Source of the DNA: Archangium violaceum
Lineage (GTDB): Bacteria; Myxococcota; Myxococcia; Myxococcales; Myxococcaceae
Direction of reading: 5' to 3'
Assembly (NCBI RefSeq): GCF_016859125.1
Contig: NZ_CP069338.1
Coordinates: 4,341,501 to 4,405,500, forward strand
DNA length: 64,000 bases
The notes under the pieces were generated by a model. The model was not told the DNA's origin. It ran no database searches and saw nothing but the letters and a program-made list of their open reading frames with translations. Positions within the stretch are counted from its first letter, which is position 1. The number at the start of each line of letters is the position of its first letter. Positions 37,502-51,805 of this stretch are shown here, piece by piece. Position numbers and translations under genes: made by a program.

Positions 37502-39424
37502 TTATTGAGAGACCGGGACGAGCGTGTCCACCTCGGCCGTGCCCGTGTAGCTGGTGGGCGTGTTGAGGTAGCCCTCGAGCCGCACGCGCCAGGTGCCCGC
37601 CACGGGGTGGGGGATGGACACCGACTCGGAGACGGAGGTGCCGTTGGCGCTGGTACCCACCAGGTTGCCGCTCGGATCGTAGACGTAGAGGTCCAGGTCG
37701 AGCGCCGGGTTGCCCCAGTCCGTGGCGATGCGCAGGGCGTTGGCGCCAGCGGGCACGGTGAGGGCGTGCTCGTGCGAGGCCTCCGCGAGGGTGACGTCCA
37801 GGATGGGCACCTTCACCGACAGGCTCACGTTGCCGCTCCAGCCCGGCAGGGCCGTGGTGACGGTGGTGGTGCGGGTGCCGGCGGACTCGGAGGCGGCGCG
37901 CACGGCGGCGTAGGCATCCGCGTAGCCCGCGCCCGCCTCCCACGTCTCGAGCTGGCGCGTGGCGCCGGTGGTGGCGTCCTGCGTGTACATGGGCCGGGCG
38001 GTGGACGTGAGCGCCGCCAGCACGCCGTCCAGGTTGAGCGTGGGGTTGACCTCGAGCATCAGCGCGACCACGCCGCTCAGGTGCGGGGTGGCCATGGAGG
38101 TGCCATCGAGGGCCGCGTAGAAGGGCTCCGGGTGCAGGCCGTCCAGGCCGAGGTACGGCTGCGCCACGGTGGCCGTGGTGGCGCGCGCCGCGACGATGGC
38201 CACGCCGGGCAGGGTGATGTCCGGGTGGTGGTTCTCATCGCCCGGGATGCCGCGGCTGGAGAAGTCGGCGAGCTGACCCGGCACGCCCTGGCTGATGAGC
38301 GGGTTGGTGGCCGCGCGGGTGTCCTTGGCCGCTCCCGCCGCCACCGAGATGGCACACGGCGAGGCGCTGTACGGGTTGAGCGTGTCCTCGCCGGGGCCGT
38401 CATTGCCCGCCGCGAAGGCCACCACGATGCCCTCGTCGTAGGCGCGCTTGGAGGCGATGCTGACGGGATCGAACGGCGCGAAGTGGCTGCCGCTGGTGCC
38501 CCACGAGTTGGAGATGACGCGGACGTTGTACGTCTCGCGGATGTCCGGGCTCAGCAGGTAGTCAAAACCCTGGAGCGCGTAGAGGATGCTGATGGCCTCG
38601 CCCGCGCCCACGGCGATGAGGCTCGCGCCCGGGGCCACGCCCTTGTACTTGCCGCCGGACCGGGCGCCAGAGCCGCCGATGGTGCTGGCCACGTGCGTGC
38701 CGTGGCCGCTGGTGAGGTCGCTGTTGGGCACGTCGATGTAGAGCGCGCCGCTCACGCCCGTCTCGAGGATGGGCGCCGCCACCTTCACGTTCTTCACCAG
38801 GTTGGGGAAATCCCCGTGCGTGCCGTCCACGCCCGAGTCGATGATGCCCACGCCCACGCCCGCGCCGGTGGCATTGAAGGCCGTGCGCGCGGTGTCCGCC
38901 TGGATGTAGCGGACGCTCTCGTCCAGGAAGTAGTGCAGTGGCCGGTCCTGGTAGATGGACACCAGGCCGAGCGGCTGCAGCGTGGTGCGCAGCGTGCTCA
39001 GGAGCAGGGGCGTGACGGGCACCTTCAGTGCCACCATGGGCAGCGCCTCGAGCGCGCCGAGGCCCTCTCCCAGGGAGATGCCGAGCGTCCCCTTCAGCAG
39101 GTCCACCGCGGGCGCCACCGCCTCCTGCGTGTTGAAGGAGAGGATGAGCGTCTTCACCAGCCCGTCGGCGGCCAGCGACGGGTCCATCACGGCCTGGGTG
39201 AGCGCCGCCTGCGCCTGGGGCGTGGAGTAGAGCGCGGTGCAGGCGCTCGGGTCGGTGGTGGGCTGCTCCACGACGGGCTTCTTCTTGCCTCCCTGGAGCG
39301 CGGTACGGGCCGGGCGGGCCTCCGCTGCTGAACCCTGGGCGCTCTCCGGTGCGGAGGTGCCGCAGCCCGTGAGGAGGGCGGTGGTGGTGAGGGCGAGGCC
39401 CAGTGTCTTGAACGGCGGTGTCAT
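37502..39424 (-). CDS. Subtilisin-like (S8) serine protease lipoprotein
   Basis: A 640-residue lipoprotein (lipobox LLTGC, Cys21). A ~150-residue propeptide-like region precedes an S8 catalytic domain with the complete triad: D196 in GIIDSGVDG, H241 in GHGTHVAS and S443 in GTSMATP, plus oxyanion N341 in AAGNDG. The C-terminal ~120 residues form a beta-sandwich with DLDLYVYDPSGNLVGTS and GTWRVRLEGY, typical of P/pre-peptidase C-terminal domains on secreted proteases. It would act on the cell surface or be released after processing. The divergent direction has no gene nearby; the secreted-protein gene 110 bases upstream is on the same strand but is separated by a terminator. Confidence 0.92.
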   Translation of the reverse strand: MTPPFKTLGLALTTTALLTGCGTSAPESAQGSAAEARPARTALQGGKKKPVVEQPTTDPSACTALYSTPQAQAALTQAVMDPSLAADGLVKTLILSFNTQEAVAPAVDLLKGTLGISLGEGLGALEALPMVALKVPVTPLLLSTLRTTLQPLGLVSIYQDRPLHYFLDESVRYIQADTARTAFNATGAGVGVGIIDSGVDGTHGDFPNLVKNVKVAAPILETGVSGALYIDVPNSDLTSGHGTHVASTIGGSGARSGGKYKGVAPGASLIAVGAGEAISILYALQGFDYLLSPDIRETYNVRVISNSWGTSGSHFAPFDPVSIASKRAYDEGIVVAFAAGNDGPGEDTLNPYSASPCAISVAAGAAKDTRAATNPLISQGVPGQLADFSSRGIPGDENHHPDITLPGVAIVAARATTATVAQPYLGLDGLHPEPFYAALDGTSMATPHLSGVVALMLEVNPTLNLDGVLAALTSTARPMYTQDATTGATRQLETWEAGAGYADAYAAVRAASESAGTRTTTVTTALPGWSGNVSLSVKVPILDVTLAEASHEHALTVPAGANALRIATDWGNPALDLDLYVYDPSGNLVGTSANGTSVSESVSIPHPVAGTWRVRLEGYLNTPTSYTGTAEVDTLVPVSQ

Positions 39425-40343: not shown

Positions 40344-41417
40344 TCAGAACACCGTCATCTTCAGCGTGCGACTCGAGGTCGCGGGACCCAACAGTCCCGT
40401 CGACGCGGAGACGGTGAACTCGTAGACGCCCGCCTGCGTGGGTTGCCCCGAGAGGACACCCGTGCTGGCGTTCAGGGTGATGCCCGGCGGCAGCTTGGAT
40501 GCGTCCACCACCTCCCAGGTGACGGAGGTGGGGGTTGTCTGGAGGGGATGGGTATAGGACGAGCCCACCCGTGCATCGGGGAGGGCGCTGGTCTTGATGC
40601 AGACCTGCGAGGACGAGCAGGTGATGGAGGTGAGCTGGATGCGGCGGACGGCGGTCTGTGGAGGCTCGTCGGAGTCCGTCACCCGCACGTCGAAGGGCGG
40701 GGTGCTGGTGTCATCCGAGGCCTTTCCGTCGACCTGCCCGTCATCGCGCAGGACGATGCCCGAAGGCAGGCTGCCCGACACGATCTCGTACGTATAGGGC
40801 GATTTGCCCCCGGTGGCCGAGAGCTGATCCACGTACTCCTTGCCACTCTCGAAGAACGCGAGCACGCCCGGCCCGGCCAGACGCAACAGGGGGCGGATGC
40901 GCACGGAGAACTCCTGGCTGGAGCGCTGGGGCGTCTCGCTCCGGTCCACCACCTCCACGGTGAAGAGGAAGTCCCCGGCCGTGGTCGGCCTGCCGGAGAG
41001 GATGCCCTCGGGGTCGAGCGTCAGGCCTGGAGGAGGCTCGCCCGCGGTGATGGAGAAGGCATAGGGCGGGGTTCCGCCGCTCGCCTGGAATCGGTGGGAG
41101 AAGGTCTCCGTCTCCAGCCCCCTTCCGGGGCCATCCGGTATGAGCACGAGCTGCGTCGGACCCGCGTCGGCGTCCCCGCCGTCCGTGCCCGCGTCGGAGC
41201 CACCTCCATCCATGTCCGAGGGTACCTCGAGGGGACACGGTCCACGCTCGCCGCAGTCCGGGAGGCAGACCTTCTCGGACGCCAGACACGTCCAGCCCCC
41301 GGGGCACGCGCCCTGGTCATCACACGTGGGGAAGCGGGAGAAGTCCGGTTGGAAGGCGCACGCCACTACTCCGAGGAGCACGGCCCCTCCCATCATCCAC
41401 CGCGGCCAGCGTCTCAT
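40344..41417 (-). CDS. Lipoprotein with putative-Ig (cadherin-like) repeats
   Basis: A 357-residue lipoprotein (GVVAC lipobox, Cys ~20) followed by a Cys-rich segment with CPGGWTC, a low-complexity Asp/Gly/Ala linker, and three putative-Ig (He_PIG) repeats. Each repeat has the signature of a GGTPPYAFSI / GLTLDPEGILSG type, the third ending LPPGITLNASTGVLSGQPTQAG. Such repeats are binding modules on the cell surface. The ATG overlaps the stop of the upstream gene by 4 bases (ATGA), making it the third gene of the caspase operon. The long upstream frame to 41999 is a shadow of that neighbour. Confidence 0.78.
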   Translation of the reverse strand: MRRWPRWMMGGAVLLGVVACAFQPDFSRFPTCDDQGACPGGWTCLASEKVCLPDCGERGPCPLEVPSDMDGGGSDAGTDGGDADAGPTQLVLIPDGPGRGLETETFSHRFQASGGTPPYAFSITAGEPPPGLTLDPEGILSGRPTTAGDFLFTVEVVDRSETPQRSSQEFSVRIRPLLRLAGPGVLAFFESGKEYVDQLSATGGKSPYTYEIVSGSLPSGIVLRDDGQVDGKASDDTSTPPFDVRVTDSDEPPQTAVRRIQLTSITCSSSQVCIKTSALPDARVGSSYTHPLQTTPTSVTWEVVDASKLPPGITLNASTGVLSGQPTQAGVYEFTVSASTGLLGPATSSRTLKMTVF

Positions 41418-42166
41418 GGCAGCTCCCAGACGAAGAAGACGGCCCCACCGGCGCCCAGCAGCGCACCCGCTCCCATCAGCACGTTGGCCGTGCGTGCCTG
41501 CTTCCGGCCTTCCTGGATGCGTCCCGAGATGCAGGAGCGGAACGCCTCGCCCTCTCCGGAGCAGCCCGCGCTCCCTCGCGAGAGGCTCGTCTCCGAGCGG
41601 CGCGCGGCCAGCCCGAAGCCCACTCCGGCCGCGAGCGCGACGCCTCCGGCCGCCAGCATCACCGTGGGCCACACCTTCCTCGGGCGCTCCACGGTCCTCG
41701 CGGCGAGCCGCGCCGACCACAGCGCGTCGAAGGCCTCGCGGATGCGCGCCGCCTCCAGGCCTGGCGGGAGCCCCTCTCCGGAGAGCTGCACGAGGCTGTG
41801 GGACTCCTGGCCCTCGCGGTCCACCAGCGTGAGCGCCACGCTGCGCCCACCCCCCACGCCGAGCGCCACGCCGCGCACCACCCGGTCCGTGCCGAACGCC
41901 TGCACCTGGGCACCCCGGCACATCGCGTCCACGCAGCCCACGAGCCGTCCACCCTGCGCGCGCACCTTCGCCACCGTGGTCGCGCGCGGCTCCAGGCACA
42001 TGCCGGAGGTGCTCTCCGCCACCCGGCGCACGGTGTCCTCCAGCTCACGCGCCTCCGCGGTCGACAGCGCCACCGGTTGGAAGGGGACGAGCACCACCCG
42101 CTCTCCCCTGCACGGGGCAGGGGCCTGCGCCAGTGCCAGCACCAGCGCGAACGAAAGAAGACTCAT
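41414..42166 (-). CDS. Exported protein with C-terminal membrane hairpin, caspase-operon partner
   Basis: A 250-residue protein with an N-terminal signal (MSLLSFALVLALAQA) and a soluble domain of ~140 residues resembling the periplasmic curli-assembly/TolB-like N-domain pattern (RVVLVPFQP, then MCRGAQVQAFGTDRVV). Two hydrophobic segments near the C-terminus (VMLAAGGVALAAGVGFGLA and VLMGAGALLGAGGAVFFV) flank a Cys-containing loop. It overlaps both the caspase gene upstream and the Ig lipoprotein gene downstream by 4 bases, so translation is coupled. The domain assignment is tentative; the topology is clear. Confidence 0.7.
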   Translation of the reverse strand: MSLLSFALVLALAQAPAPCRGERVVLVPFQPVALSTAEARELEDTVRRVAESTSGMCLEPRATTVAKVRAQGGRLVGCVDAMCRGAQVQAFGTDRVVRGVALGVGGGRSVALTLVDREGQESHSLVQLSGEGLPPGLEAARIREAFDALWSARLAARTVERPRKVWPTVMLAAGGVALAAGVGFGLAARRSETSLSRGSAGCSGEGEAFRSCISGRIQEGRKQARTANVLMGAGALLGAGGAVFFVWELP

Positions 42167-43422
42167 GGTGTGAGATCGGGTCCCTGTTCGGGGGCCACGG
42201 GCGTCTGCCCCAGGCTGGCCATGTATCCCGCGTAGAAGCGGGGGCCGAAGGGCACGGAGAAGAGCTTGTCCCGGAAGGCGTCATCCACCGCGCCGCGGGC
42301 GGCGATGGAGTTGTCCCTCCAGGAGAGGCTCCCCGCGTTCACCACCGCGCCCGGGCGGGCGAACCTGAAGGCGGCCTCGCGTCCGAAGGCCCGCAGGAAG
42401 TAACCAGGGCCGGGGGGCAATCCCAGCACCACGGAGCGCTCGCGCTCCTTGTTGAACTCGGCCACCCGCAGGCCCCGCGAATCCTCCACCCACAGCCGGC
42501 CCTCCAGGCCCGCGGGCAGCAGCAGGAAGCCCAGGCGCGCCCTGTCCCCGAGGTCCACCAGCGCCGCCGAGCGATCCTGCGCGGGCGGCTGGATGGACAC
42601 CTCGAGCCGGCCCCGCACGTCCTCCACGCCCTGGTTGGCGGCGGCGACGAAGGCCCTCAGCTCCGAGTACTCCACCCGCCCGTCCGCGTTGACGTCCGCG
42701 GCCCCGGCGAGCGCGGAGAGCACCTGGTGGCTGAAGACGCCCGAGCGGATGGCGCTCCACTCGTGGCTCTCCTGCTCGCGGGTGGTGGACAGCACGGCGC
42801 CCACGTGCGGGTAGCGCCCGAGCTCGCGCGCGGCCAGCAGGCCCCGCACCGCCTGCGCCTGGGCGGGCGCCACCGGCAGCGCACCGCGCGAGTTGACGAA
42901 GAAGTACGAATCACACGCGTCCACGATGAGGTGGATGAAGGCGGCGGTGCTGGGCGCGATGACCTGCGCGTAGAGGTCGGTGCGCGTGAAGGGCCCATCC
43001 AGCAGGCTCACCATGCCCTCTCCGGCGGGCCCGCGCTTTCCGTGGCCGGTGAAGACGAAGTAGAGCACGGGCTCGTCGCCGCGCTTGCGGTCCTCGGCCA
43101 TGCGGGCATTGAGCTGGCCGAGCGCTTCCTTGAGCGCCCTGCGGGTCGGGGGCCGGGTCCGGGAGGCGAGCCCCGGGTGGCGTGCCTGCGTCTCCTCGTC
43201 CAGCACGGTGAGGAGCACGGTCTCCTTCGTGAGAGAGGAGAGCAGCTCGTAGTAACGCGCGCCGTCATCGTCGGCGTAGCGCAGGGGGGCCTGCTTCGGT
43301 TCGAGCCCGGTGTTGTTGGCGAGGATGAGCGCGTAGGCCACCCGCTCGGGCGCGGCGCTCGCGGCGGTACCAATGAGGAGCGCGGCCCACAGGGTCACCG
43401 CAGCGCATCGGAGCGGTCGCAT
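42163..43422 (-). CDS. Exported caspase-like (C14) peptidase
   Basis: A 419-residue product starting MRPLRCAAV with a cleavable-looking signal peptide (to about residue 23). The caspase fold follows: YALILANNTG, a long helix, then the catalytic dyad H127 in FVFTGHGKRG and C170 in LIVDACDSYFF. A segment DVNADGRVEYSEL (about 247-259) is an EF-hand-like calcium loop, as seen in many prokaryotic caspases. The C-terminal ~170 residues are beta-rich. It is the first gene of a three-gene operon and lies beyond one gene from a divergent sigma/anti-sigma pair. Location outside the cytoplasm is inferred from the signal; the target is unknown. Confidence 0.85.
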   Translation of the reverse strand: MRPLRCAAVTLWAALLIGTAASAAPERVAYALILANNTGLEPKQAPLRYADDDGARYYELLSSLTKETVLLTVLDEETQARHPGLASRTRPPTRRALKEALGQLNARMAEDRKRGDEPVLYFVFTGHGKRGPAGEGMVSLLDGPFTRTDLYAQVIAPSTAAFIHLIVDACDSYFFVNSRGALPVAPAQAQAVRGLLAARELGRYPHVGAVLSTTREQESHEWSAIRSGVFSHQVLSALAGAADVNADGRVEYSELRAFVAAANQGVEDVRGRLEVSIQPPAQDRSAALVDLGDRARLGFLLLPAGLEGRLWVEDSRGLRVAEFNKERERSVVLGLPPGPGYFLRAFGREAAFRFARPGAVVNAGSLSWRDNSIAARGAVDDAFRDKLFSVPFGPRFYAGYMASLGQTPVAPEQGPDLTP

Positions 43423-43486
43423 GCGGTGACAGTGTCTCCGGAGCGAGCCAGGGCGGCAAGGTGCCACGGGTGCGCGGAGGGACTCT

Positions 43487-43507
43487 TCCCACGCACCTTC
43501 CGTGGGA
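43487..43507. promoter_or_regulatory. Dyad upstream of the caspase operon
   Basis: TCCCACG (43487-43493) and CGTGGGA (43501-43507) form a perfect 7-bp inverted repeat with a 7-base spacer, about 65-85 bases upstream of the caspase ATG on the minus strand. It may be an operator or the terminator of the gene ending at 43577. Confidence 0.35.
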
Positions 43508-43576
43508 GACGAGGGGGTGCAGTGTCGGGCAGCCGACCTTCCGTACTGGCCGTGTGCCCTGTCCGCATGCCGGGTG

Positions 43577-44221
43577 TCAGAAGCGGCCACTCAGACCGAG
43601 CATTCCCCCTCGGGCGTCGAAGGCCAGCAGGGGTTGGAGGCGTGGGTGGGCGGCGCTCCTCTCCGGGTGCTCCGGGCGCTGTGACAACTCGTAGCCCAGG
43701 GAGGCTCCAATCATGCCGAGCACGGGAATGGCGATGACCATGCCGCCGCCAGCGGTCGTGCCTTCCAGGAGGCCTCCCGCGATGAACCCCACGGCCCCTC
43801 CCCCGAGCGCGGCCCACAGGCTTCCATCTCCGCCCACGGCTTCTCCGCCCCACCAGACCCCCAGGGGATAGCCCACCAACAGGCCCGCCGTGAGCCCGAA
43901 GAGGAGGGGATAGGCGCAGCCCCATTCGCTCTGGACCGGGGACTCCGTGAGCAGGCACAGCCCGAGACCCGTGAGCCCTCCCGCCAGGGTCGTCGCCACG
44001 CCCCCGCCCACTTCCGCGAGCAGACGGAGTGCGAGCGGGGCCCTCCTCCGCAGGGACCCGGAGGCGGGGTCCTCCAGCAGCGTGGGTCCGTGCTCCTCGG
44101 TATTGGAGGTGGGGGAGGCCAGGGGCGCGTCTTCGGCGGCGAGGCCTCCACGGGGCGTGAGCAGCAGCAGCAGGCACAGCAGCACCACGGACTTCGAGCC
44201 AGGGGGCAGGCGAGAGGTCAT
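43577..44221 (-). CDS. Glycine-rich membrane protein of unknown function
   Basis: A 214-residue protein starting MTSRLPPGSK with a signal/anchor segment (VVLLCLLLLLTPRGGLA). After a polar stretch come three or four Gly-rich hydrophobic segments (GGGVATTLAGGLTGLGLCLL, LLFGLTAGLLVGYPLGV, ALGGGAVGFIAGGLLEG, MVIAIPVLGMIGASLGYEL) of the glycine-zipper kind. No family recognised. It sits between the caspase operon (154 bases downstream, same strand) and the divergent sigma factor, directly beside the 16-bp tandem repeat. Membership of the same regulon is plausible but unproven. Confidence 0.65.
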   Translation of the reverse strand: MTSRLPPGSKSVVLLCLLLLLTPRGGLAAEDAPLASPTSNTEEHGPTLLEDPASGSLRRRAPLALRLLAEVGGGVATTLAGGLTGLGLCLLTESPVQSEWGCAYPLLFGLTAGLLVGYPLGVWWGGEAVGGDGSLWAALGGGAVGFIAGGLLEGTTAGGGMVIAIPVLGMIGASLGYELSQRPEHPERSAAHPRLQPLLAFDARGGMLGLSGRF

Positions 44222-44260
44222 GGTCCGAGCGTAGGGGCAAACGCCTGGACTCGCATCGTT

Positions 44261-44292
44261 ACAAGCGCGCCACCTGACAAGCGCGCCACCTG
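44261..44292. repeat. Perfect 16-bp tandem duplication in the divergent sigma-factor promoter region
   Basis: ACAAGCGCGCCACCTG occurs twice with no spacer (44261-44276 and 44277-44292). It lies 40 bases upstream of the minus-strand membrane gene and ~115 bases upstream of the sigma-factor ATG. Adjacent direct copies in a divergent promoter are typical of repressor or activator sites, although a recent slippage event is also possible. Confidence 0.6.
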
Positions 44293-44407
44293 TCGGGTCC
44301 CCTTCCTGACGATCCCCGAACGCTGGAGATCCACTCCGGCCAGCAAATCGCAATTCGAGATGCGGGAAGGTGACGGCGGGGCGTTGGGCACGGTAAGTCG
44401 CAGACGG

Positions 44408-45043
44408 ATGGAGTGGGATGCGCGGACATTGCAACACTTCCGGGAGGGTGACCCGGAGACACTGGGCCAGGTGTATCGGGCGCACGTGGAAGTGCTGGCG
44501 CGGGCACTGCGGGCCATGGTGTGGCGAGGGCGGGGGTTCAGCCAGATGAAGGGGGCGCTGGAGCTGGAGAACACCGTGCTGGAGACGTTCGCGCGGGCCT
44601 TCGAGCCGAGGGCCCGGGGGGCGTACGACGGGGTGCGGCCGTACGGGCACTTCCTGGTGGGGATCGCGCGCAACGTGCTGCTGGAGCAGGCGCGGCGGCG
44701 TGAGGTGTCGGTGGGGCTGGAGCCCTTCGAGGAGGTGGGCGAGGTACCCTTGGAGGGAGAGGGGCTGGCCCAGGTGTTGGAGGACCGGGAGGTGGAGGGA
44801 TTGCTGGCGAGCTTCAAGGAGGGGTTGTCGGCGGAGGAGCGGCGGCTGTTCGAGCTGCGCTTCGGCGAGGAGGGGCTGGCGCAGGAATGCGCGGCCGAGC
44901 AGTTGGGGCTGACGCGCATTCAGGTGCGGCGGCGGGAGCTGGGGTTGAAGACGCGGCTGCTCGAGTTCCTGCAGGCGCGGGGCTACCTGGAGGGGATGGA
45001 AGTGAAGGGGTGGAGCTTCTTCAAGCGGCGAGGGCAGTCATGA
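44408..45043 (+). CDS. ECF-type RNA polymerase sigma factor
   Basis: A 211-residue sigma-70-like protein. Region 2 lies at about 8-85 (FREGDPETLGQVYRAHVEVL, then TVLETFARAFEPRARGAY and FLVGIARNVLLEQARRREV). After an acidic linker, region 4 is a helix-turn-helix (LSAEERRLFELRFGEEGLAQECAAEQLGLTRIQVRRRELGLKTRL in outline). It lacks region 1, as ECF factors do. I choose ATG 44408; an in-frame ATG at 44360 would add 16 residues and neither has a strong ribosome-binding site. The stop overlaps the ATG of the next, anti-sigma-like gene by 4 bases. Confidence 0.82.
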   Translation: MEWDARTLQHFREGDPETLGQVYRAHVEVLARALRAMVWRGRGFSQMKGALELENTVLETFARAFEPRARGAYDGVRPYGHFLVGIARNVLLEQARRREVSVGLEPFEEVGEVPLEGEGLAQVLEDREVEGLLASFKEGLSAEERRLFELRFGEEGLAQECAAEQLGLTRIQVRRRELGLKTRLLEFLQARGYLEGMEVKGWSFFKRRGQS

Positions 45044-45798
45044 CGAGGTGCGCGGACCGACAGGCGAAGCAGGCGCTGGAGGCGCTCTTCCGGGGCGAGC
45101 TCGACGGGGAGGGCTTCACCCGGTTGCGCGTGCATGCCGCGGCGTGTGACGAGTGCCGGGAGGCCTACGACAAGCTGAGCCGGGTGGAGTCGTCGCTGGA
45201 GCAGCGCGTGCTTCCCGCGAACCGGGAGCTGCTGCTGGAAAAGGAGCTGTTCGCGCGGCTGGAGACGGCGGCGAAGCCGGCGCGTGAGCGGGCACCCGTG
45301 CCCGAGCGCAAGCGCTCCTGGCCGACGTTCCTGGTGCCGGCGGCGGTGGGGTTGGCGATGGCCGGGGTGGCGATGGTGTGGGTGGTGCCGCAGCTGGGGA
45401 CGCGGGAGTCCGAGTGGCAGTCACGCGGAGCCGAGACGGGGACGTCGGCGTGGGGCCTGCGGGCCTTCTGCGTGGGTGCGGACGGAGCGGTGCGAGGCGA
45501 GGCGAGGCCGGGCGGAACCCTGGTGTGTGGCGAGGGGGACGCGGTGCAGTTCAGCTACACGGCGCCGGAGGCCGCGAGCCTCTCGGTGGAAGCCCTCTCC
45601 GAGGAGGGCGAGCCGCTGCGGTTCTTCCCTCAGGAAGGCGATTCGGAGAAGGTGGCGGCGGGGGTGGACATGCTGTTGCCCTACAGCACGCCGGTGCAGG
45701 GAGGCTGGCTGGCCGGGCCGCTGGAGGTACGAGCGACCTTCAAGGACGCACGGGGCCGCCCGCTGTCACAAACGCGGTTGAACCTGCTGCCCAGGTAG
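45040..45798 (+). CDS. Membrane anti-sigma-factor-like protein (zf-HC2 type N-terminus)
   Basis: A 252-residue protein. The N-terminal domain has the anti-sigma zinc-finger spacing HAAACDEC (H32, C36, C39) and a helical extension that would grip the sigma factor. A single membrane helix lies at about 94-113 (TFLVPAAVGLAMAGVAMVWVV) and a ~135-residue extracytoplasmic domain follows, with VCGEGDAVQFSYTAPEAASL and MLLPYSTPVQGG, resembling DUF4384-like beta domains found beside prokaryotic caspases. The ATG overlaps the sigma stop (ATGA), so both are made together. Release of the sigma factor by an envelope signal is the inferred role. Confidence 0.75.
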   Translation: MTRCADRQAKQALEALFRGELDGEGFTRLRVHAAACDECREAYDKLSRVESSLEQRVLPANRELLLEKELFARLETAAKPARERAPVPERKRSWPTFLVPAAVGLAMAGVAMVWVVPQLGTRESEWQSRGAETGTSAWGLRAFCVGADGAVRGEARPGGTLVCGEGDAVQFSYTAPEAASLSVEALSEEGEPLRFFPQEGDSEKVAAGVDMLLPYSTPVQGGWLAGPLEVRATFKDARGRPLSQTRLNLLPR

Positions 45799-46388: not shown

Positions 46389-46525
46389 CGCCGGAGCGGA
46401 GCATTCCGGGACGCGGGGGCGCTCGCCCGCATGCCTGGACTGGTACGAGGCGACAGCCAATACAGGAACGAACGCGCTGCCTGGCCGGGTTGGGAAATCG
46501 CCCGACTTCCGAACTGGAGAAGGCC

Positions 46526-49500
46526 GTGAATCGTCGTTCCAGCCATTCGACCCGTACCCAGACAGGGAAGAAGACCCGTAAGAGCACCACGCTCGCGCGG
46601 CGCTCGCACGCGCGTTCGCGCCGGCTCGCGACGGCGGAGGCGCTCGAGACGCTCCTGGAGTCCCTGCAAGCCGTCACCCACGGCGACTTCTCCGTCCGCC
46701 TGCCGCCCGAGGAGCAGCCGGTGGCGATGGAGGAGATCGCCCACGCCTTCAACGGCCTGGTGGCGATGAACCAGCGGATGCAGGACGAGCTGGTGCGCGT
46801 GGAGCGGGTGGTGGGCCGCGAGGGCCAGATGGCGGAGCGCGCCTCGCTGGGACCGGTGAGTGGCGGCTGGGCCTCGAGCATCGGCTCCATCAACTCGCTC
46901 ATCGCGGACCTGGTGCAGCCCACCACGGAAGTGGCGCGCGTGCTGGGCGCGGTGGCGCGGGGTGACCTCACCCAGAAGATGGCGTTGGACCTGCCGGGGC
47001 AGCCGGTGAAGGGCGAGTTCCTTCGCATCGGCACCACGGTGAACGCGATGGTGGATCAGCTCAGCTCGTTCGCCGCCGAGGTGACGCGCGTCGCGCGCGA
47101 GGTCGGTACGGAAGGGAAGCTGGGAGGCCAGGCGCGGGTGCCGGGGGTCGCCGGGACGTGGAAGGACCTCACGGACAGCGTGAACCAGCTGGCCAACAAC
47201 CTGACGGCGCAGGTGCGAAACATCGCCGAGGTGACGACCTCGGTGGCGCGCGGTGACCTGTCGCGCAAGATTACCGTCGATGCGCGAGGCGAGGTGCTCG
47301 AGCTGAAGAACACCGTCAACACGATGGTGGATCAGCTCCGCTCGTTCGCTGGCGAGGTGACGCGCGTCGCCAAGGAAGTGGGGACGGAAGGCAAGCTGGG
47401 CGGCCAGGCGGACGTGCCCGGAGTGTCCGGCGTCTGGAAGGACCTCACGGACAACGTGAACCTGATGGCCTCCAACCTCACCACCCAGGTGCGAGGCATC
47501 GTGAAGGTGGTGACGGCGGTCGCCAACGGTGACCTGTCCCAGCGCCTCGTGGTGGACGCCAAGGGCGAGATGGCCGCCCTGGCCGACACGCTCAACAGCA
47601 TGACCAAGACGCTCGGCATCTTCGCGGACCAGGTGACCAGCGTCGCCAAGACGGTGGGCGTGGAGGGCAAGCTGGGCGCCCAGGCGGACGTGCCGGGTGT
47701 GGCCGGTACGTGGAAGGACCTCACGGACAACGTGAACCTGCTCGCCAACAACCTGACGGCGCAGGTGCGAAACATCGCCGAGGTCAGCACGGCCGTCGCC
47801 CGCGGTGACCTGTCCAAGAAGATCACCGTCGACGCCCGGGGCGAGGTGCTCGAGCTGAAGAACACCATCAACACGATGGTGGAGCAGCTGCGCTCGTTCG
47901 CCGGTGAGGTGACGCGCGTCGCGAAGGAAGTGGGGACGGAAGGCAAGCTGGGCGGCCAGGCCGACGTGCCGGGGGTCTCCGGTACCTGGAAGGACCTCAC
48001 GGACAACGTGAACTTCATGGCCTCCAACCTGACGGCGCAGGTGCGAAACATCGCCCTGGTGACGACGGCGGTGGCCAATGGAGACCTGTCCAAGAAGATC
48101 ACCGTCGACGTGAAGGGGGAGATCCTCGAGCTGAAGAACACCATCAACACGATGGTGGACCAGCTCCGGTCGTTCGCCGCCGAGGTGACGCGCGTCGCGA
48201 AGGAAGTGGGGACGGAAGGCAAGCTGGGTGGCCAGGCCGAGGTGCAGGGTGTGTCCGGCGTCTGGAAGGACCTCACCGACAGCGTGAACTCGATGGCGTC
48301 CAACCTGACCAACCAGGTGCGCAACATCGCCAAGGTGACGACGGCGGTGGCCAACGGGGACCTGTCCAAGAAGATCACCGTCGACGCGAAGGGGGAGATC
48401 CTCGAGCTCAAGGACACCATCAACACGATGGTGGATCAGCTCAACGCGTTCGCCTCGGAGGTGACGCGCGTCGCGCGTGAAGTCGGTACGGAAGGCAAGC
48501 TGGGAGGCCAGGCGCGCGTGCCCGGTGTCGCCGGAACGTGGAAGGACCTCACGGACAACGTGAACCTGATGGCCCGCAACCTGACGACCCAGGTGCGCGG
48601 CATCGTCAAGGTGGTGACCGCGGTCGCCAACGGTGACCTGACCCAGAAGCTGGTCGTCGACGCGAAGGGCGAGGTGGCCGCGCTGGCGGACACCATCAAC
48701 AGCATGACGGACACGCTGGGCACCTTCGCCCAGCAGGTGTCCACGGTGGCCCGCGAGGTGGGCATCGAAGGGAAGCTGGGCGGCCAGGCCAAGGTGCCCG
48801 GGGCGCGCGGTGCCTGGAGGCAGCTGACCGACAACGTGAATCAGCTGGCCGGAAACCTGACGTCGCAGGTGCGCGCCATCTCCGAGGTGGCCACCGCCGT
48901 GACGAAGGGGGACCTGACGCGGTTCATCTCGGTGGATGCGGGCGGCGAGCTGGCCGCCCTGAAGGACAACATCAACCAGATGATCGTCAACCTCAAGGAG
49001 ACGACACAGAAGAACACCGAGCAGGACTGGCTGAAGACGAACCTCGCGAAGTTCTCCGGCATGATGCAGGGGCAGAAGAACCTGGAGGCCGTCTCCCGGC
49101 TCATCATGTCCGAGCTGACGCCCCTGGTGTCCGCGCACCACGGCGCCTTCTTCCTCATGGACTTCGAGGACAGCGCGCCCGTGGCCAAGCTCACCTCCAG
49201 CTACGCCTACCGCGAGCGCAAGAACGTGGCCAACCGCTTCCGGCTCGGGGAGGGTCTGGTGGGCCAGTGCGCCCTGGAGAAGAAGACCATCCTCCTCACC
49301 CACGTGCCGGCGGACTACATCCGCATCATCTCCGGCCTGGGCGAGGCCAGCCCCCTCAACGTCATCGTCCTGCCCGTCCTCTTCGAGGGCGAGGTGAAGG
49401 CCGTCATCGAGCTGGCCTCCTTCCACCCGTTCAGCACCATCCACCAGATCTTCCTGGACCAGCTCACCGAGAGCATCGGCGTGGTGCTGAACATGATCAT

Positions 49501-51805
49501 GGCCAACATGCGCACCGAGGAGCTGCTGCGGCAGTCGCAGAGCCTCGCCAACGAGCTGCAGAGCCAGTCGCGCGAGCTCACCCAGCAGCAGGAGGAGCTC
49601 AAGCGCTCCAACTCGGCGCTGGAGGCCCAGGCGCTCGAGCTGGAGGAGAAGGCCAAGCTGCTCGAGCAGCAGAACATCAAGGTGGAGGAGAAGAACCGCG
49701 AGGTGGAGCAGGCGCGCGCCAGCCTGGAGGAGAAGGCCGAGCAGCTCTCGCTCATCTCCAAGTACAAGAGCGAGTTCCTCGCCAACATGTCCCACGAGCT
49801 GCGCACGCCGCTCAACAGCATGCTGGTGCTGGCCAAGCTGCTCGCGGACAACTCCGACGGCAGCCTCAGCCGCAAGCAGGTGGAGTACGCGGAGACCATC
49901 TACTCCTCGGGGGGGGATCTGCTCTCCCTCATCAACGAAATCCTGGACCTCTCCAAGGTGGAGGCCGGGAAGATGCAGGTGGAGCCGCGCGACTCCGCGG
50001 TGGCGGAGCTGGTGGAGTTCGCCCGCCGCACCTTCGGTCCCGTGGCCGAGCAGAAGAACCTGGGCTTCCTCACCGAGGTGGGCCCGGAGGTGCCGGCCAC
50101 CGTCTTCACGGACCCCAAGCGGCTGCAGCAGATCCTCAAGAACCTGCTGTCCAACGCCTTCAAGTTCACCAGCACGGGCCAGGTGACGCTGCGCATCCGC
50201 ATGGCGGACGCCGAGGAGCGCTTCGCCGCCCCCGAGCTGGTGGAGGCCGACACGGTGCTGGCCTTCTCCGTCATCGACACGGGCATCGGCATCCCCGAGG
50301 ACAAGCAGAAGCTCATCTTCGAGGCCTTCCAGCAGGCGGATGGCACCACCAGCCGCAAGTACGGGGGCACCGGCCTGGGTCTCTCCATCAGCCGCGAGCT
50401 GGCCCGGTTGTTGGGGGGTGAAATCCGCGTGAAGAGCTCCCGCGGCGCGGGCAGCACCTTCACCCTCTACCTGCCGCGCAGCTACAGCGGTCCCGAGCGG
50501 GGGAGCGAGCCCGCCAGCGAGACGGACGTGGGCTACACGCCCATGCTGCGCGAGCTGCTGCCGCGCGACGAGGTGCACGGCACCGCGGCCCCCCACCCGT
50601 TGAGGGATGACCGGGATGACCTGGGCGCGGAGGACCGCGTGTTGCTCGTGGCGGTGGACGACCTGGAGTTCGCCCGCGGCCTGGTGGCCACCGCGCACCA
50701 GAGTGGACTCAAGGCGCTGGTGGCCACGCGCGGTGACGTGGCGCTCTCCCTGGCCCAGCGGCTCAAGCCGTACGCCATCGTCCTGCAGCTCGGCCTGCCC
50801 GTCATCGACGGCTGGAGCGTGTTGGACCGGCTCAAGCGCGACCCGCGCACCCGCCGCATCCCCGTTCAGGTGGTGAGCGTGGACCGCATGCGCGGCGCCT
50901 CGTGCGGCGGCGGCTTCGCCTACCTCGACCGGCCCTTCTCCCCCGAGGCCATCCAGGGCGCCTTCAGCCACCTGGAGCTCGAGGCCAACGGCGCGCCCCG
51001 CAAGCTGCTGCTGGTGGACCCCAAGCCAGAGCTGCGTGACTGCGTGCGGCAGCTCATCGACATGGGCGAGTCCCTGGAGATGCGCGAGCTGGAGTCCACC
51101 CAGGCCGTGCTGGCGCTGGACCGTGGGGAGGTGGACGCGCTGGCCCTGGACCTGGCCTCACCCGGTGGACGGGGAATGAAGCTGCTGGTGGAGCTGGTCC
51201 GCGGGCCCACCCGCCTGCCCCCCGTGTTGCTCTACAGCGGCTCGCAGCTGCTGCCGGACGAAGAGCGCCAGCTGCGGCGCTCGGCCGAATCCGTGCTGCT
51301 CGAGGCGGCCGCCCGCTCGCCCGAGGCCGTGCTCGCCGAGGTGGGCCGCTTCCTTCGCCGGGTGGGAGAGCAGTCCCGCGTCTCCGCCGAGGAGATGAAG
51401 GAACTCTCCCGCTCGCTCTGCGACCGCAAGGTGCTGCTGGTGGACGATGATGCCCGCAACATCTTCGCGCTCACCAGCGTCCTGGAGAATCATGGCATGC
51501 AGGTGACATTCGCGCAGGACGGGCGTGCGGCCATGGACATTCTGGAGAAGAATCCGGAATTGGACGTGGTTCTGCTGGACGTGATGATGCCGGAGATGGA
51601 TGGTTACCAGGCGATGCGCGCCATTCGCGCGGACCCCCGGTGGGCCTCCCTGCCCGTCATCGCCATCACCGCGCGTGCATTGAGGGACGATCGCGAGAAA
51701 TGCCTCGAGGCCGGGGCATCGGATTACCTCTCCAAGCCCGTCGACACCGAGCGGCTGTTGGAGTTGATTCGTCGGTGGGTGGAACCTTGCGCGGGAGCGA
51801 GATGA
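46526..51805 (+). CDS. Soluble poly-HAMP hybrid histidine kinase with GAF and three receiver-like domains
   Basis: A 1759-residue kinase starting at GTG 46526 (GGAG 7 bases upstream). A basic N-terminus leads into an array of HAMP domains to ~residue 825, including seven exact 92-residue units with [11 protein letters not shown] and [18 protein letters not shown] motifs. A GAF domain (~835-985), coiled coil (~990-1075), HisKA with [10 protein letters not shown] (H1090) and HATPase_c follow. Of three receivers, the first (~1369-1485) has Gln where the phospho-Asp belongs (IVLQLGLP), the second (~1490-1620) is degenerate, and the last (1633-1755) is canonical ([12 protein letters not shown]1685; SKP). 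No membrane helix. This is the layout of fungal group III osmosensing kinases. Confidence 0.92.
47065..48996 (+). repeat. Seven exact 276-bp tandem units encoding HAMP pairs
   Basis: Equivalent positions of the motif (S/G)FAxxV recur at 47065, 47341, 47617, 47893, 48169, 48445 and 48721, a constant 276-base (92-codon) period with no indels. Units share long identical stretches at the DNA level, so copy number could change by homologous recombination while keeping the reading frame. Confidence 0.9.

Follow-up and report, generated by a model that had tools for sequence, protein, structure and literature searches.

A caspase/ECF sigma factor module of Archangium violaceum and its relatives, with a candidate cleavage site in the anti-sigma factor

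Analysis of a 64,000-nucleotide stretch (the window) of the Archangium violaceum genome, which is a single contig of 12.68 Mb, revealed a module of five genes encoding an exported caspase-like protease, an extracytoplasmic function (ECF)-type sigma factor, its putative anti-sigma factor and two further proteins, A and B. The module is conserved among relatives, within which its gene order has changed, and both the caspase and the linker of the anti-sigma factor are predicted to lie outside the cytoplasm. The caspase has an invariant His/Cys dyad and invariant acidic residues, and the linker carries a conserved motif. To our knowledge, the functions and substrates of bacterial caspase homologues are largely open. 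We tentatively propose that this caspase is the protease that releases the sigma factor, cutting the anti-sigma factor within one envelope-signalling module, a reading that we consider a genuine possibility, somewhat short of probable.

A five-gene module conserved in the family

The caspase operon occupies the minus strand. Gene C (42163-43422), encoding the protease, is followed by genes B (41414-42166) and A (40344-41417); the genes of the sigma factor (44408-45043) and the anti-sigma factor (45040-45798) are transcribed divergently from the plus strand. A preliminary description of this DNA had reported overlaps of 4 bp between C and B, B and A, and the sigma and anti-sigma genes, and all three are present at these gene limits. 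It had also included a gene for a glycine-rich membrane protein, D (43577-44221, minus strand), in a set of six and placed it after the caspase operon. Gene D in fact lies upstream of the caspase gene on the same strand; it has no Pfam match and, because a tblastn search (E <= 1e-3) found no relative of it in the 40 related loci examined, we regard it as a local neighbour outside the conserved module. All module products except the sigma factor are predicted envelope proteins.

Loci orthologous to that of the window (group I) occur in 46 of the 96 family genomes. All 46 were inspected; 45 are complete and one (L091) is interrupted by a contig end. A caspase orthologue with a best identity of at least 52% is present in these 46 genomes (in G025 as fragments), and the family search found a sigma factor orthologue (identity at least 46%) in exactly the same genomes and in no others. 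All five genes are present in each of the 45 complete loci, 44 of which, including the window, are divergently arranged, and one of which (L057) forms a collinear run. Caspase operon and sigma pair thus constitute one unit, as had been supposed: they occur in the same genomes, their adjacency is kept and their linkage outlives the change of orientation. A check for the two parts at unrelated places in related genomes gave the opposite outcome, as they are kept together.

A search of 195 genomes of the phylum, with the caspase alignment as the query (E <= 1e-20), detected members of the caspase family in 108. Among 44 named loci, a distant set of 23 (L115-L137) was distinguished. In 20 of these a sigma gene lies upstream of the caspase gene on the same strand, and in the other three a contig end lies close to the caspase. 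The anti-sigma profile gave a match (E <= 1e-3) in 19 of the 23, whereas matches of the B and A profiles beside the caspase were weak or missing; the B profile match of L129 falls on the C-terminal end of the caspase itself. The core conserved in distant relatives is therefore sigma factor, anti-sigma factor and caspase, with B and A not seen there, and for this reason a caspase that is part of the switch fits better than one that is one of many outputs. The distances between caspases correlate with those between sigma factors (r 0.92, n 50, 0 of 2000 permutations as high; r 0.87 among 20 distant loci), a correlation that common descent of the linked pair alone may produce.

Caspase genes with an adjoining sigma factor match were found at four places or more in the host genome. 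Three further C14 genes, L072, L001 and L002 (at approximately 9.43, 7.83 and 7.52 Mb), are each preceded on their own strand by a sigma profile match (E 6e-18, 8e-10 and 7e-8, respectively), which points to several parallel caspase circuits in this genome. No sigma match was found within the 1.5 kb examined around the C14 gene L003.

Anchoring, activation or sensing are possible roles for the products of genes B and A. Gene A encodes a putative lipoprotein with a Cys-rich N-terminus, a lipobox recognized by eye and three He_PIG (putative immunoglobulin, Ig) stretches (PF05345, E 1.9e-26), in agreement with its preliminary description as a putative-Ig lipoprotein. Gene B had been described as encoding a membrane-hairpin protein. 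The hairpin was recovered, but it is preceded by an additional domain, so the hairpin-only reading does not hold. In the structural model (mean predicted local distance difference test score, pLDDT, of 76), a TolB/PelC/LpoB-like domain occupies residues ~19-157 and is followed by a poorly modelled hairpin. Foldseek matches of the model comprise GNA1162, LpoB, PelC and TolB (E 3e-6 to 1e-4), and VIA structure matches comprise FlgT, TolB, PelC, CsgG and LpoB (Z ~8-11, root-mean-square deviation (rmsd) 2.7-4.4; best rows Z 10-11, rmsd ~3, 113-129 residues aligned). Since comparison with the sequences of the PDB gave no firm match, the fold derives from the model. Transmembrane (TM) windows begin at residues 1, 169 and 229, the first within a signal-peptide-like start. 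Gene B thus seems to encode a TolB/PelC/LpoB-like periplasmic domain joined to a C-terminal two-helix membrane hairpin.

The caspase and the anti-sigma linker

The sigma factor matches PF04545 (region 4) with 27.4 bits against a cut-off of 24.1. The TIGR02937 (sigma70-ECF) match covers residues 24-187 (E 3.9e-9) and, with 36.4 bits, is below the cut-off of 42.9; no separate Pfam match was found for region 2. The product of the overlapping gene has the features of a class I (ZAS) anti-sigma factor: an HxxxCxxC zinc motif (H32-x3-C36-x2-C39), four N-terminal helices in the model and one TM segment at residues ~98-116 (TM window 2.23 at residue 98). Its zf-HC2 match is weak in the window (E 0.033); all 18 alignment members match this domain at E <= 0.1 (best 1.2e-5), and the anti-sigma profile matches RsiW (E 8e-4). 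Residues C4, H32, C36, C39, C144 and C163 are invariant in 45 of 45 group I proteins. In the model (mean pLDDT 78) the TM and linker residues 79-135 score below 50, and residues 136-252 form a predicted periplasmic beta-sandwich, the best structural matches of which are Ig-like domains (Z 7-8). These predictions agree with the earlier recognition of a divergent ECF sigma factor paired with a zinc-finger-type anti-sigma protein that has an extracytoplasmic domain. Adjacency and the 4-bp overlap suggest that the anti-sigma factor binds and inhibits its sigma factor. A DUF4384 match, obtained with only 1 of 18 members (E 0.043), is not claimed. RhoGDI, NPC2 and PDE6D were among the matches of the Ig-like domain; lipid binding is likewise not claimed, because common beta-sandwiches score at the same level (Z 7-8).

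Between the TM segment and the sandwich lies the motif W126-Q-S-R129-G130 (45415-45429, plus strand), a proposed site of caspase cleavage after R129. Residues 126-129 (W/F-Q-A/S-R) stand out in the group I linkers (n = 45): the first is W in 39 and F in 6, the second Q in 33, the third A in 34 and the fourth R in 44 and K in 1. Column 125 is E in 37 of 45, and residues 118-124 are variable, the commonest letter occurring in at most 21 of 45. The pattern [WF]xx[RK] is present in 46 of 46 group I linkers, with the basic residue 8-18 residues past the TM window, and the strict form [WF]xx[RK][GS] in 40 of 46, against an average of 3.1 and at most 8 of 46 in shuffled linkers.

Outside group I, a set of 60 paralogous and distant loci yielded 33 distinct linked anti-sigma factors (canonical HxxxCxxC, TM segment, gene upstream of the caspase); loci with no such frame, duplicates and loci with no caspase were dropped. 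The strict motif is present in 22 of the 33 (shuffles: mean 0.8, maximum 4), and a relaxed form, [WFLMVYI]xx[RK] with a wider choice of following letter, in 31. A control sample was drawn from 82 loci that were the best matches of zf-HC2 and anti-sigma-profile searches. After exclusion of 25 without an HC2-plus-TM frame and of 3 duplicates, 54 anti-sigma factors were counted, linkage being defined as a caspase match in ~1.5 kb on each side; the window's own locus (L159), the caspase of which is beyond the flank, was assigned as linked by hand. The strict motif occurs in 9 of 15 caspase-linked and 1 of 39 unlinked proteins (Fisher p 8e-6), and the relaxed motif in 12 of 15 and 10 of 39, respectively (p 5e-4), p-values that are rough and too small because the loci are related, linkage was read from flanks of ~1.5 kb and the samples overlap, some loci being common to the control and the 60-locus set. 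The six linked control proteins without the strict motif carry KG or RG in the linker.

The window caspase matches PF00656 with 22.7 bits against a cut-off of 21.4, and 14 of 27 aligned members match this family at E <= 0.1. The dyad H127/C170, named in the preliminary description, is shared by all 60 aligned caspases, as are D51-D53 and D168. D53 and D168 were matched by eye, from the sequence pattern, to D95 and D211 of the basic-P1 pocket of TbMC2 (PMC6426788); according to the available part of the same source, orthocaspases cleave after basic residues. The acidic residues of the caspase may thus correspond to a basic-P1 pocket, and Arg/Lys is a candidate cleavage specificity.

An EF-hand-like Ca2+-binding loop, DVNADGRVEYSE, is located at caspase residues 243-254 (42661-42696, minus strand). 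Its residues D243, D247, G248, Y252 and E254 are invariant in 60 of 60 caspases, EF-hand_5 matches 16 of 27 members at E <= 0.1, and the caspase profile, compared with the PDB sequences (E <= 0.1), retrieved five calcium-binding EF-hand proteins and nothing else. EF-hand motifs are also on record for archaeal orthocaspases (PMC6426788, available part). The conserved loop suggests that caspase activity outside the cytoplasm may be Ca2+-dependent.

The N-terminal hydrophobic window of the caspase resembles a signal peptide, and there is no C-terminal anchor. Related caspases have a C-terminal TM pair (e.g. L072, L092, L093, L116, L129 and L134) or none, and those without a pair often end in F, as outer-membrane barrels do. 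Eight distant caspases of 584-633 amino acids (L118, L120, L121, L125, L126, L130, L132 and L137) end in F and have no C-terminal TM pair; they are possibly caspase/outer-membrane-barrel fusions. Pfam barrel matches in distant caspases have E values of 0.035 and 0.082, in one member each, and the barrel reading is tentative since L116, L124 and L134, which have the TM pair, end in F too.

In the mechanism that we propose, the anti-sigma factor would tether the ECF sigma factor to the inner membrane via its cytoplasmic ZAS domain, and the caspase, being exported, would meet the linker in the periplasm. An envelope signal would be read by the Ig-like domain of the anti-sigma factor, by the product of gene B and/or by lipoprotein A, and the caspase would cleave the anti-sigma factor on the C-terminal side of the Arg/Lys conserved in [W/F]-x-x-[R/K], 8-18 residues beyond the membrane. 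This first cut would lead to stepwise destruction of the anti-sigma factor by a general RseP/Clp-type pathway and so free the sigma factor, which would transcribe the operon to which it belongs and would include the caspase gene at least where the genes stand in the ancestral, collinear order. The cleavage, the signal and the sigma regulon are what we infer from the features described. The more specific claim, that the exported and possibly Ca2+-dependent caspase is the dedicated site-1 protease of an ECF cascade, cutting its own anti-sigma factor, is advanced with greater reserve.

Several points weigh against cleavage of the linker by the caspase, and the limits of the p-values given above and the promoter results given below add to them. 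The strict motif is missing from 11 of the 33 linked anti-sigma factors, of which nine have the relaxed form and two only KG, and the relaxed motif is not rare among unlinked anti-sigma factors (10 of 39). The equivalence of the pocket is drawn from a sequence pattern and not from a structure of this caspase, and cleavage after R129 is a predicted event. The one unlinked carrier of the strict motif (L192) is accompanied by a closely related sigma factor and has no caspase within the 12.8 kb of L220 (G108:C140:76000-88813), in a genome that has caspases on other contigs. The motif may thus be characteristic of the family and serve some other function. It follows the anti-sigma family, one unlinked member having retained it, and could be a structural element, or could dock B, A or a caspase that acts as a non-cutting partner. 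We consider this unlikely: the linker is predicted to be disordered, the spacing of the motif from the membrane varies between 8 and 18 residues, and the residue kept most strictly is a basic one, which is what cleavage by an orthocaspase would call for.

Promoters and gene order

A promoter proposed for the sigma gene, GATCCA-N14-TCGCAA (44328-44353, plus strand), begins 80 bp ahead of the start codon. The pattern [GA]ATCC[AG]-N14-[CTG][GC]NCAA is found ahead of the sigma gene at 42 of the 46 group I loci, including the window (shuffles 0.04 of 46). With a position weight matrix (PWM) from which the locus's own clade was left out, 0 of 60 shuffles equalled the real sequence at 17 of the 20 loci tested (among them the window), and p was 0.03-0.10 at the remaining three. 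The collinear locus L057 retains GATCCA; its -10 part misses the pattern. A different, CGACC...CGTA-like element was seen by eye, with no statistics, before the sigma gene in 9 of 11 collinear paralogue loci of Myxococcaceae (L061-L071), L066 and L068 being the two without it.

The sigma-side pattern was found ahead of the caspase in 0 of 46 loci, and the PWM performed no better there than on shuffles (p 0.10-0.98; tested at 20 of the 46 loci). A sigma-type promoter on the caspase side was accordingly rejected, none of the 20 loci falling below p 0.10. The caspase side has a pattern of its own, [CG]TGGAT-N14-17-T[GA]GCA, in 34 of 46 loci against a shuffle expectation of 0.01. A sigma-54 reading of its TGGCAC was dropped after inspection by eye, as the GG/GC spacing is not kept. 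The caspase operon might then use its own promoter (GTGGAT-N15/16-TGGCA) and another factor, the linkage reflecting a shared envelope process and the sigma factor controlling other genes. This appears quite improbable, since the window and 11 other group I loci lack the caspase-side pattern and the collinear order requires no separate promoter. Moreover, the -10-like parts of the two patterns, TGGCA and YGACAA, are alike, and the best PWM hit falls on the same site in 6 of 20 loci, although not significantly.

A quickly built tree of 51 selected caspases requires only a single switch between the two gene orders, collinear and divergent; the collinear order is thus the likely older arrangement. 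The collinear L057 groups with divergent loci in one starred 16-row set; the support of the divergent set is only 65. The preliminary description proposed that the sigma factor induces the caspase, and its suggestion of a role in controlled lysis, predation defence or development is conjectural. Collinear relatives imply co-transcription, which favours this part of the claim; because the sigma-side motif was not found on the caspase side, the view that the sigma factor drives the caspase operon of the window draws on these relatives only.

The same collinear operons, in which the caspase lies downstream of the sigma and anti-sigma genes on one strand, suit a different division of labour. Another, signal-responsive protease would free the sigma factor, leaving the anti-sigma factor uncut by the caspase, and the sigma factor would induce the exported caspase as an effector acting on envelope or foreign proteins, in remodelling, lysis or predation. 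The conserved motif ahead of the sigma gene accords with this, and several related caspases end in a TM pair or possibly in a barrel, as suits an envelope effector. We regard it as plausible, if doubtful: a motif of the sigma type was not detected ahead of the caspase by either the pattern or the PWM, and the caspase-linked motif in the anti-sigma linker is left unexplained.

Relation to known systems and genomic neighbourhood

The linkage of caspase homologues to sigma factors is already known. In 2012, sigma-70/metacaspase operons were reported in Myxococcus xanthus, Anaeromyxobacter, Haliangium, Sorangium, Ralstonia and Fibrobacter (Asplund-Samuelsson et al., PMC3501461), the link in M. xanthus concerning four of five metacaspases. 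The word anti-sigma is missing from the main text of that report, as available, whereas the module described here has an anti-sigma factor with a linker motif, as well as a divergent five-gene form, a promoter pattern, genes B and A and anchoring variants. The single-strand operon of 2012 differs from the arrangement of the 44 divergent loci among the 45 complete ones of group I, the window included; it corresponds to the collinear order of relatives.

A precedent for a caspase-like protease that cuts an inhibitor of an ECF-type sigma factor is the type III-E CRISPR system Craspase, with Csx29, Csx30 and CASP-sigma (PMC10028731, available part), in which cleavage of the inhibitory substrate is proposed to lift the inhibition. 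Craspase is RNA-activated and cuts Csx30; here the caspase is exported, its proposed substrate is a membrane ZAS anti-sigma factor, and none of the six window genes matches CRISPR/Cas or TPR families. In the regulated proteolysis of E. coli DegS/RseA and B. subtilis RsiW, both named in the same source, an envelope protease cuts a membrane anti-sigma factor, which is then processed further, as would be the case here. The first protease, by contrast, would be a caspase-fold cysteine protease encoded within the module. Caspases near ECF sigma factors are also found in the EACC2/caspase/ECF-sigma/TPR neighbourhoods (eLife 2021, PMC8195603, available part), where the EACC2-caspase is a multidomain protein accompanied by a TPR protein; no TPR domain was matched in the six window genes. 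For ECF54 sigma factors, which have CHAT-domain neighbours, proteolytic control by the adjacent caspase-like protease has been proposed (PMC8999054, available part), whereas an anti-sigma factor is present in 46 of 46 loci orthologous to the window.

Among the open-licence papers listed in literature searches we met no caspase homologue joined to an anti-sigma factor in such a setting, nor the linker motif, the promoter motif of the sigma gene, the gene B fold or the five-gene form in its divergent arrangement. The module supplies a candidate substrate, the anti-sigma factor, with R129 as the residue in question, and a simple reporter in the sigma-gene promoter, and cultured strains exist in genera that carry it, Corallococcus and Archangium among them. 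If the proposal is true, this widespread family of Myxococcota caspases would act in signalling and not as death effectors, and one cell would harbour paralogous circuits next to one another. Caspase-type proteolysis would then join DegS-type proteases in opening envelope-to-gene signals, in multicellular bacteria that have several circuits per cell.

The module is adjoined by a gene for an exported subtilisin-like (S8) protease (37502-39424, minus strand; assigned by eye), a close relative of which lies on the same side of the module in L034, L035, L036, L038 and L041. On the other side, an open frame of 1771 amino acids (46490-51805, plus strand) contains many near-identical HAMP-array-like repeats followed by kinase and receiver-like parts, as judged by eye. 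In three loci of the genus Archangium the gap between caspase and sigma genes is 3.3-5 kb (L034, 3.3 kb; L035; L037), and the gaps of L035 and L037 contain stretches that match kinase/receiver parts of the window's histidine kinase (28-34%).

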